A stretch of 64,000 nucleotides of DNA from Actinokineospora xionganensis (lineage in GTDB: Bacteria; Actinomycetota; Actinomycetes; Mycobacteriales; Pseudonocardiaceae), in NCBI RefSeq assembly GCF_014323725.1, contig NZ_JABVED010000007.1, forward strand, positions 1-64,000. Direction: 5' to 3'. Numbering within the stretch: position 1 is the first letter of the stretch; each line of letters starts with the position of its first letter. A model generated the notes under the pieces. That model was not told the DNA's origin and did not search any database. It saw only the letters and a list, made by a program, of their open reading frames with translations. The translations under genes and the position numbers were made by a program. Below, piece after piece: positions 11,650 to 14,145 of the stretch.

Positions 11650-11701
11650 GTTATGGGTAGCGATTATGGTCGAGATAGCGCATCCGAATCAGGTGCACCG
11701 C

Positions 11702-11811
11702 CTATCCACAGCTCGACCGGTTATCCACAGCGACCCCCAAGCCAAGATCATCTGTCACCCCCAGCCGATAGACTGGGCAAGGGCCGTCCCCCAGGGAAGG
11801 GCGGGGGCTGC
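11702..11811 (+). repeat. Dispersed 110-bp element, copy 1
   Basis: Order of parts: CTATCCACAG, about 10 bases, TTATCCACAG, about 35 C-rich bases, then CCGATAGACTGG and a hairpin region CCGTCCCCC...GGGCGGGGGC. The same order recurs at 53251-53360 (+) and 62814-62925 (-). TTATCCACA matches a DnaA box. TAGACT fits the actinobacterial -10 form TANNNT, and the hairpin follows where a short transcript would begin (inference). This copy lies between the LysR gene and the pentapeptide pseudogene. Confidence 0.8.
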
Positions 11812-11875
11812 TCGGGGCCGCTCTGAACGCCGATCGGGTTGGTGAAGCGGTCACCACAGCCGATAGAGTTCCGTG

Positions 11876-12535
11876 ATGCGCTTCCGTGAACTGTCGGTCG
11901 GCCGGTCGCTGCAGTGTCCGTCCATCGATCTGGATGACTTGGTCGAAGAGTCCGCGGGCCTCAAGGGCGATTTCGCTTACACCGACGTTCGGCTCGTCGG
12001 TACCGCGTCCGGAGTGGTGGGCGAGGGATCGCTGCGCCGTTGTGTCGCCGCTGGGACGGACATGTCCGGGTCGCGTCTGTCCCCAGTGGATTTTCACCGA
12101 CGTCGAGTTCACCGAGGTGGACCTTCCAACGCAACGGTTGAGGTCGGCGCGGCTCGGCGGGTCGCGTGAGAACGCTGCCGGGCGGTGGGCCTGCAATTGA
12201 CACTCGACCAGGCGGAGGAATTCTACGTCGACGACTGCCGCCTGGACTACGCGACCATCGAGGTGCGGCGTGTGAAGGGCCTGATGGTGCTGCAAGGCTG
12301 TTCGCTGCGTGAGGCGGTGATCCGCGGCGATCTGTCGAACGTGCTGCTGCTCGCCTGCGATCTCACGGGGGCGGAGTTCGCGGCGCGACGGGCTGAGGGC
12401 TGTGATCTGCCGGGTTCTGAGCTCGGCGGGGCACGGGGGTTGGTGTCGTTGCGTGGCGCGAAGATCAGTGCGGAGCAGGCCGTCTCGGTCGCCGAGGTGC
12501 TGGCGGCGGAGACGGGCCTGCTCGTCGAGCGCTGA
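11876..12535 (+). pseudogene. Pentapeptide-repeat protein, disrupted in the middle
   Basis: The first 70 residues (RFRELSVGRSLQ...DFAYTDVRLVG...LRRC) and the last 115 (AVGLQLTLDQAEEFYVDD, then DLSNVLLLACDLTGAEF, CDLPGSELGGARGLVSLRG) form one frame of a pentapeptide-repeat protein (A(D/N)LXX quadrilateral helix), which would total about 219 residues. Between about 12090 and 12170 the conserved text jumps to another frame (FTDVEFTEVDL), back, out again (RSARLG) and back. That needs about four single-base indels that cancel out, and a TGA at 12167 sits where a Cys codon would fit. Either a decayed gene or a patch of sequence error. The C-terminus meets the peptide gene at 12537 tail to tail. Confidence 0.75.
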
Positions 12536-12536
12536 C

Positions 12537-12731
12537 CTATTTCTTGCGGTTGTCCCAGTTGTCCCAGGCGGGTTGGTTGTCCCAGGGTTTGCCGCCGCCG
12601 GACTTGTTCCAGTCGTCCCAGCTGGGGCGCTTGTCCCACTTGCCTGCGTCGACGGTGGGCCGCCACTGGTCGATCAGGGGTAGCAGGCCTTCCTTGCAGC
12701 CTCGCAGGCGGTCAGCGAGGATGGTTGCGGA
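12537..12731 (-). CDS. Trp-rich peptide tail resembling a cyclophane RiPP precursor
   Basis: On the minus strand an open frame between a TAA at 12732 and a TAG at 12537 encodes about 64 residues with no ATG or GTG start in frame. It begins ATILADRLRGCKEGLLPL and ends in a striking run of Trp motifs: WDK, WDD, WNK, then WDN three times, closing with RKK. Such W-x-N/K/D triplets in a Pro/Gly/Lys-spaced tail are the substrate pattern of three-residue cyclophane (triceptide) peptides, and the radical SAM/SPASM gene lies directly upstream in the same direction, overlapping by about 18 bp. I infer a former precursor, possibly now cut off from its own start by a frameshift, or a tail once fused to the maturase. 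Confidence 0.5.
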   Translation of the reverse strand, partial: SATILADRLRGCKEGLLPLIDQWRPTVDAGKWDKRPSWDDWNKSGGGKPWDNQPAWDNWDNRKK

Positions 12732-13446
12732 TTATGTTGTGGTGGGCAACGCCGATCACTCCTTCCATGAGTGCGATCTTGCTGTTCTGGCAGTAAGCCG
12801 TTTCGGTTGTGTCGAGCCGGCCGTGCTCGAAATGGCGGTTGGAGGGGTGGCCTCCGCCGCAGAAGTCGAAGTACGGGCACAAATCACGGCAGTTGCGCAG
12901 ACCGCGGCGGTATTCCCGCACCCAGTTCGCGGCCAGGCCTCGGTCGATGAGCTGATCCAACGGTTCATCGAGGACGTTGCCGCAGGAGAACACGCCATGG
13001 CGTTCGGAGGTGAACCCGGCCAATTCCGGGGAGATCAGGGTGACCGAACCGTCGAAGGCCACGGTGGGCAGTGGTTCGATCATCGCCGGGCGGGACGGGG
13101 ACGGCTGCTCGCGCAGTGTGTGGGCGGCGAATCCGAGGGCTCGGTCGATCTCGCGGACCTGCACGCGGGGGTTCTCCTGCCAGCAGCGCAGGAGTTCGGC
13201 CCAGAATTCGGCGGTTCGGTTGAGGTCGCGGGTGGTGGGGCGTTGGGCGTTGACGCCCTCACGTTCCTCGATGTTCACCCCGAGCCAGGTGCAGCCGAGT
13301 TCGGCGGCGAACGCGTGCAGCCGACGCGCCCGCTGGGGGCTGGGGTCGCTGACCACGGCGATCACCGACACGTCGCGCCCGGCCGCGAGCAGCAGTTCGA
13401 TGCCGCGCAGGATCCTACCGAACGCCACCCGACCGGCCAGGTCGAC
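12712..13446 (-). pseudogene. Radical SAM/SPASM peptide maturase, 5' half missing
   Basis: Only the C-terminal 245 or so residues remain. Recognisable are the barrel strand RVDLAGRVAFGRILRGIELL, then SVIAVVSDPSP, and a SPASM-type end: FSCGNVLDEPLDQLID followed by CRDLCPYFDFCGGGHPSNR and YCQNSK. The Cys ligands of the auxiliary Fe-S cluster are intact, but the CxxxCxxC motif that binds the SAM-cleaving cluster should lie about 100-140 residues earlier and is absent. At about 13446 the homology stops and the antisense of another truncated gene begins. In this family the enzyme crosslinks Trp/Phe side chains of a short precursor, which fits the WDN-rich tail just downstream. As it stands it cannot be active. 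Confidence 0.72.
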
Positions 13447-14062
13447 TCGCAAAGCCCTCTCCGGGCTGGCCAATCTCGCGATGCACCAAGGGCGGCCTGA
13501 TGACGCGCTCAGCTTCGCCGAGAACGCGTTGGTCCGTGCCGACCGGCTAACACCCGTGGTCAAGGCCGTCATGCATACCCGCCACGCCCGCGCCCTCGGT
13601 CTCGCCGGGCCTCAGCGCGAAATTGACTGCCTCACCGCCACGGGCCAAGCGCAGGACGCTTTCGCCCGCGACGGCGGGGATGAACCGGACTGGATCACCT
13701 ACTACGGGCCGGCGCACCTCGAACGCGATCTCGGCCGCGCACTGCTGCACCTGGCGGTCAACGGCGGCGACCACACCGCCGCCCAAGGCCACCTCGTCGC
13801 CGCGATCGACCGCTTCCCCCAGCAGCACTCGCGCGGCAAGACCCTCGCCGTCGCCAACCTCGCTCACCTCACCATGGCCCGCGACGACCCCAACCACGCC
13901 GCCACCCTCGGCCACAGCGCCCTCGACGGCTTGGGCCCGATCCGCTCCGACCGAGTGTTCGAAGCACTGCGGCAACTGCGCGTCGCCGGTCGCCGACACC
14001 GCACGATCCCTGTGGTGCGGGAGTTGAACGCCCGCATCGACAGGGTGCTGAAGCCGGCCTGA
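13447..14062 (+). pseudogene. TPR-type transcriptional regulator, 5' half missing
   Basis: The frame from about 13447 encodes some 204 residues of helical repeats (LANLAMHQGRPDDALSFAENALV, then ARALGLAGPQREIDCL, HLERDLGRALLHLAV, LAHLTMARDDPNHAATLGHSALDGL), typical of the C-terminal half of actinobacterial XRE-TPR regulators. The N-terminal HTH is gone: upstream the frame passes into antisense of the radical SAM remnant and has no start near the join. Both remnants keep their 3' ends and lack their 5' ends. They were therefore probably divergent neighbours whose shared promoter side was deleted. An intact XRE regulator with a helical-repeat-like tail is at 46310. Confidence 0.65.
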
Positions 14063-14145
14063 CGGCCCGTTGCGCGGGCAGCGCAGCCCTGTCACGCAGA
14101 TATGTCGAAGTCCGACAGGTCAACCGACGTCGCTTCGGACCACTG

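Follow-up and report, generated by a model that had tools for sequence, protein, structure and literature searches.

The closest described counterpart of the locus analysed here is the AMC group of NCBIfam, in which the maturase AmcB (NF041718, "cyclophane-forming radical SAM peptide maturase") and the precursor AmcA_1 (NF041721, "multiple cyclophane-containing RiPP AmcA") have been modelled; since NCBIfam models exist for AmcA types 1, 3a, 3b, and 4, the class is already known. The second-best family, GrrM/OscB (TIGR04261) of the triceptides, is separate from AmcB, and rings on AmcA_1 are presumed by analogy. OscB and XncB are reported to close rings of three residues between a Trp or Phe and an Asn or Asp (PMC11002830). 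A pentapeptide partner, the subject of much of what follows, is absent from the names of the AmcB and AmcA_1 families. A product encoded beside a pentapeptide gene is likewise seen for speirobactin, the cystobactamids, and microcin B17, although these are NRPS products or azoles, whereas the AMC products would be cyclophanes. Microcin B17 is a gyrase inhibitor accompanied by the pentapeptide self-resistance gene McbG. Two reports place a pentapeptide self-resistance gene beside the clusters for the gyrase inhibitors speirobactin and the cystobactamids (PMC12406682, PMC9231227), and mining by pentapeptide genes has already yielded topoisomerase inhibitors (PMC9231227).

In the current study, a window of 64,000 nucleotides from Actinokineospora xionganensis (contig NZ_JABVED010000007.1, positions 1 to 64,000) was analysed. 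It contains the degenerate remains of a RiPP unit of three genes, which belongs to the AMC group of NCBIfam and has an AmcA of type 1; its features are as follows.

11689–14143, no strand: extra block in comparison with G201 (the nearest relative), flanked by a LysR gene and an mce gene
11876–12535, plus strand: pentapeptide-repeat protein pseudogene, tail to tail with amcA, with a TGA at 12167–12169 and a stretch in another frame
12537–12749, minus strand: amcA pseudogene, with TTG at 12747–12749, TAA at 12732–12734, the core within 12540–12731, and the stop codon TAG at 12537–12539
12712–13446, minus strand: amcB pseudogene, the C-terminal part of a SPASM-type cyclophane maturase, with the N-terminal radical SAM third gone
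12759–12765, minus strand (read from 12765 down to 12759): Shine-Dalgarno-like GAAGGAG inside amcB, where relatives have the amcA ribosome site
13449–14062, plus strand: C-terminal fragment of a TPR regulator of the NsdA family, abutting the broken amcB and by origin outside the AMC locus

The locus type shares enzyme family, precursor type, and gene order with the AmcB and AmcA_1 models, and its relatives exceed the cut-offs of both, whereas the copies in the window are fragments that score below both cut-offs and cannot work. The amcB remnant is an open frame of 245 residues (12715–13449, minus strand, stop codon TGA at 12712–12714) that matches NF041718 at an E-value of 1.9e-78 over model positions 128–358 of 362, its 264 bits lying below the curated cut-off of 425 bits; the next-best family is TIGR04261 (E 3.6e-35). 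It is 52–61% identical to the AmcB proteins of type-1 Pseudonocardiaceae loci. When it is aligned with its intact relatives, the first residue of the fragment falls at about column 122 of 393, far past the conserved CNLDCxYC, which bears out the statement of the first-pass annotation that the enzyme lacks its CxxxCxxC part. The SPASM region is kept, with cysteines C304, C308, C314, and C337 and an FCGG motif that are invariant in a 15-row alignment. The AmcB of the window is thus a family relic, a non-working member.

The peptide frame (12540–12731, minus strand) encodes 64 residues and matches NF041721 at an E-value of 3.9e-7 over model positions 10–53 of 54, with 30.4 bits against a cut-off of 40 bits; that both matches fall below their cut-offs is expected of broken copies. 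Its core holds exactly six motifs (WDK, WDD, WNK, WDN, WDN, WDN), and in 5000 dinucleotide shuffles of this stretch the best of the six frames contained three or fewer W[DN]x motifs each time; the six motifs are not due to chance. The frame has the same position and relative frame after amcB as in the relatives, and its triplets lie near the C-terminus. Calculations of pN/pS on AmcA cores involved one pair that was nearly identical and another that was out of register. The first-pass annotation had described a SPASM maturase half followed on the minus strand by a six-motif peptide in another frame, and these coordinates and features were confirmed; its assignment of the remnant to a cyclophane-type RiPP system agrees with the two NCBIfam matches. 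The overlap that it noted between the two frames exists as well, although its figure of 18 bp should be replaced by 17 coding bases plus the stop codon.

In the relatives, the amcA start sits within the end of amcB. The Shine-Dalgarno-like site there consists of the codons of a conserved Glu-Gly pair, written as GAAGGA or GAAGGG in 18 of 20 loci, compared with 6 of the 32 Glu-Gly pairs found elsewhere in these genes, and it is followed by ATG, GTG, or TTG in 19 of the 20 loci (ATC in L099). This conservation supports translation of AmcA from a ribosome site within the amcB end as the most likely arrangement. A frameshift joining AmcB to AmcA was considered because the frame relation is nearly constant, and it was rejected, since the conserved ribosome site and start codon explain the arrangement better. 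In the window, the TAA at 12732–12734 follows after five codons from the TTG, leaving amcA without a complete reading frame. The start codon that the first-pass annotation found missing is accounted for by a lesion, a premature TAA behind a kept Shine-Dalgarno-like site and TTG.

The pentapeptide gene of the window is also broken. Its homology shifts to another frame near 12.09–12.13 kb, and a profile of its relatives, which includes the window piece P0002, matches 11876–12529 at an E-value of 1.0e-79 with one internal TGA. The pieces P0002 and P0003 match relatives separately, and P0002 is 62% identical to the homologue of locus L120.

Concerning the surroundings of the unit, the AmcB homology ends at about 13446. 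The DNA that begins at 13449 shares 88% identity with an NsdA-family gene located at 2.1 Mb in genome G190. The fragment matches NF053720 (E 1.6e-40, positions 243–432 of 432) and is 94% identical to the G190 orthologue at the protein level. As no amcB or pentapeptide match was found within the 12 kb surrounding the G190 gene, the join between amcB and the NsdA fragment looks like a rearrangement. The NsdA-type fragment (about 13445–14059, plus strand) was also considered as the AMC cluster's own regulator, since TPR-type regulators matching it sit upstream of amcB in several relatives; this reading of its origin was rejected because the G190 orthologue has no AMC gene in the 12 kb read around it. 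Nucleotide alignment with G201 by blastn stops at 11688 and resumes at 14144, and both flanking proteins are 96% identical. The LysR–mce spacing is 1018 bases in G201 and 774 in G190, with other content between the two genes. The gap is filled differently in the window and in each of these two genomes, so foreign blocks may be inserted at this site.

With all three genes broken and no second AmcB found in the same genome at E-values up to 0.001, where the sole match was the fragment, nothing is made by this unit in the window genome, in agreement with the first-pass view that the system is dead here. It is very improbable that the lesions are sequencing or assembly errors in a locus that is intact in the organism. 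The genome is a draft of 70 contigs, which speaks for such errors, but several kinds of damage occur at once, completeness is 99.8%, and the NsdA junction lies inside a 338 kb contig with homology to the NsdA gene from 13449 onwards. We give still less credence to the idea that the WDN-rich frame is an active small peptide that uses a rare start codon after the TAA and is matured by another enzyme: its 64 codons are open and the core is well preserved, but no ATG, GTG, or TTG occurs between the TAA at 12732–12734 and the core, and a search of the same genome covering the AmcB family returned the fragment as its one match.

The intact relatives called for by the first-pass annotation were found, with a complete AmcB and a layout as in the window; the new product that it thought possible for them belongs to a class that NCBI curators have already modelled. 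AmcB was detected at E-values up to 1e-60 in 32 of 297 genomes of the family, including that of the window, and exceeded the cut-off in 24 of the 297, while a further scan yielded 568 or more relatives, the best 80 of which were retained. The precursors that follow AmcB are of several kinds. Those of type 1 are rich in F/W-D-N and were found in Pseudonocardiaceae, in Streptomyces, and in one further family; Saccharothrix deserti (L034) and Streptomyces coffeae (L097) are examples with an intact AmcA_1/AmcB pair. Another kind matches AmcA_4 (NF041724). The Micromonosporaceae kind is AmcA_3a by NF041722, and 62 of its 72 loci (L036–L112 minus L051 and L096–L099) have the same core, AVCAWNHFENIPTFYNWNNRP, which has one change in 4 more and was not found in 6; this constancy suggests a physiological role for that peptide. 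The single Micromonosporaceae-type locus that was read, L039, has two frames upstream, which we take to be purF-like and purM-like, and a short frame downstream, presumably MerR/BldC-like.

Beside the type-1 loci, no common exporter or protease family was found. Outside the genes of the unit and antisense or overlapping frames, no neighbour family occurred in more than 4 of 25 type-1 loci by blastp clustering, although TPR-type regulators recur. In one locus (L158:361–1671, genome G503), an intact-looking AmcB continues in frame into a type-1 core with FDN/WDN motifs, and a pentapeptide gene lies convergent behind this fusion. A possible second enzyme–substrate fusion, with a type-3-like tail, was seen in a metagenome-assembled genome (L110); the apparent fusions in L160, L175, and L183 were not counted, as AmcB in these loci is broken or matched in part.

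The pentapeptide gene is linked to AmcA_1. It was present beside AmcA in all 32 fetched AmcA_1 loci (the window excluded), within about 1.5 kb on each side, so that the first-pass suggestion that the adjacent pentapeptide gene may belong to the same locus is upheld for the locus type. These loci came from searches with the AmcA_1 model of 394 genomes from the class, 341 from family f19, and 35 from the order to which G503 belongs, which are overlapping sets in which each locus was counted once, and the set leaves out weak AmcA matches in G909 and G922. AmcB was unmatched in two of the 32 (L185 and L189) and partial in seven, which may mean that decay has set in for some of these units as well; in L179, one frame is matched by both profiles. 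Among the loci from the AmcB search that have a readable type-1 core, 16 of 16 carry the pentapeptide gene tail to tail with amcA. The gene lies on the amcA strand in family f19 and is convergent in family f20, and in a tree the f19 genes group in part with named Streptomyces ones. The same profiles found no pentapeptide gene in the 72 Micromonosporaceae-type loci or in 11 other AmcB loci, the latter read with flanks of about 1.5 kb or less; the control profile represents the AMC-type pentapeptide and would miss unrelated pentapeptide proteins, and the distant AmcB relative L031 belongs to neither of the two control sets. Among the matches listed by our full-text literature searches, there was no mention of a link between AmcA_1 and a pentapeptide gene, and we do not claim that it is unreported.

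Distances between AmcB proteins and between pentapeptide proteins were correlated at r 0.84 over 16 Pseudonocardiaceae loci, with none of 2000 permutations reaching this value; over 25 loci the correlation was 0.54. These 25 are loci already known to contain the pentapeptide gene, and the correlation would follow from any joint inheritance. Two type-1-like AmcB loci have neither AmcA nor the pentapeptide gene: in one (L027/L033) the amcB end is lost, and the other (L016/L035/L116) stands at a contig end, its missing part being found at the end of another contig. In L128, L129, L152, L154, and L160, AmcB is split or partial while the pentapeptide frame is still open; either the enzyme and peptide die first, or some of the splits are sequence errors.

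A close pentapeptide match (over 200 bits) was found in 44 of 297 Pseudonocardiaceae genomes, half of which (22 of 44) have AMC parts beside it and half (22 of 44) do not; weaker matches in 30 more genomes stand outside this count. Of the 22 lone matches, 17 were read at the locus (L135–L150 and L153), where neither an AmcB match nor an AmcA-like core was seen nearby, and five were judged by a missing AmcB match. In a tree of 31 linked and 17 lone pentapeptide genes there are 8 label changes, at least 4 of them forced by supported branches; with the lone genes scattered in this way among linked ones, the pentapeptide gene appears to outlive its partners. Clustering of the neighbours of the lone genes gave no family in more than 4 of 17 loci except the gene itself and antisense frames. 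In four g16 genomes, the pentapeptide genes form a supported clade without AMC, and the protein could have a role of its own there.

Concerning the nature of the pentapeptide protein, a 15-row profile searched against solved structures gave 2w7z (EfsQnr, 4e-17) as the best match, followed by two MfpA sequences, with 3du1 (HetL) far lower at 1e-4. The Saccharopolyspora rosea homologue is predicted to form a beta-helix followed by a C-terminal helix (mean pLDDT of the model 79, poor up to about residue 45), the arrangement shared by MfpA, Qnr, and AlbG. The 31 fold matches of this model at E-values up to 0.001 include MfpA, a clostridial relative, EfsQnr, QnrB1, AlbG, HetL, and designed solenoids. 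Their TM-scores normalized to the query range from 0.19 to 0.58, which is moderate and calls for caution, and matches to gyrase-related proteins are expected, since a large share of solved pentapeptide structures are of this kind. Among the NCBIfam models, Alr5209 and HetL (E about 1e-11) score better than MfpA (1e-7) for the Streptomyces homologue, and no model scores better than 0.001 for the Saccharothrix homologue. The AMC pentapeptide protein is a family distinct from MfpA, Qnr, and AlbG; the window piece and two relatives fall far short of the MfpA and Qnr cut-offs in NCBIfam, and binding to gyrase is putative. The assignment to the predicted fold class is well supported, and on the basis of the profile and model matches a link to gyrase is plausible.

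The position of related copies beside a gene resembling a gyrase shield suggests a gyrase-directed peptide with self-protection. In the mechanism that we propose, AmcA would be made from the ribosome site within the amcB end and serve as the substrate of AmcB. This radical SAM/SPASM enzyme would form a bond between the aromatic ring of a W or F (residue i) and the beta-carbon of residue i+2. By analogy with the triceptide class, each W/F-D/N-x triplet would be stapled in this way, giving several small rings per peptide. The matured peptide would be antibacterial, with gyrase, topoisomerase IV, or their kin as its probable target, and the pentapeptide protein would act as producer immunity. We lean towards this reading, in which the window holds a dead AMC unit, intact AmcB staples AmcA, and the pentapeptide protein protects the producer's gyrase or topoisomerase IV from the matured peptide. 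An immunity gene would be expected to show the observed pattern, as the pentapeptide gene occurs alone in half of the close matches, yet none of the 32 AmcA_1 loci is without it.

The main alternative accepts the same dead AMC unit and takes the pentapeptide protein to be a scaffold, a carrier, or a regulator and the peptide to be a signal or a structural product. It is consistent with the lack of a common exporter or protease family beside the type-1 loci and with the nearness of the Streptomyces pentapeptide protein to Alr5209 and HetL rather than MfpA in NCBIfam; the nearly invariant core of the related AmcA_3 peptide likewise favours a physiological role over an arms race. A pathway scaffold, however, is unlikely to stand without its pathway, as the pentapeptide gene does in 22 of 44 close matches, and by profile the best solved relatives of the protein are EfsQnr and MfpA. 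We consider this alternative possible, though less likely than the reading with producer immunity.

Returning to the reading with producer immunity, its extension to the whole AmcA_1 group is put forward tentatively, as a proposal that may well fail in part: the AmcA_1 peptides of at least three actinobacterial families would be gyrase- or topoisomerase-directed multi-cyclophane RiPPs, each paired with its own dedicated immunity protein of the pentapeptide kind; the immunity gene would often persist in cells from which the peptide has been lost; and the fusion in L158 would be a self-modifying one. In the literature searched, no known target of the AmcA_1 peptide family was found. The remnant in the window is itself a dead member of a named family, whose peptide class NCBI has already modelled; the linkage of AmcA_1 to the pentapeptide gene provides a concrete, testable proposal for the target and the self-resistance of this peptide family.
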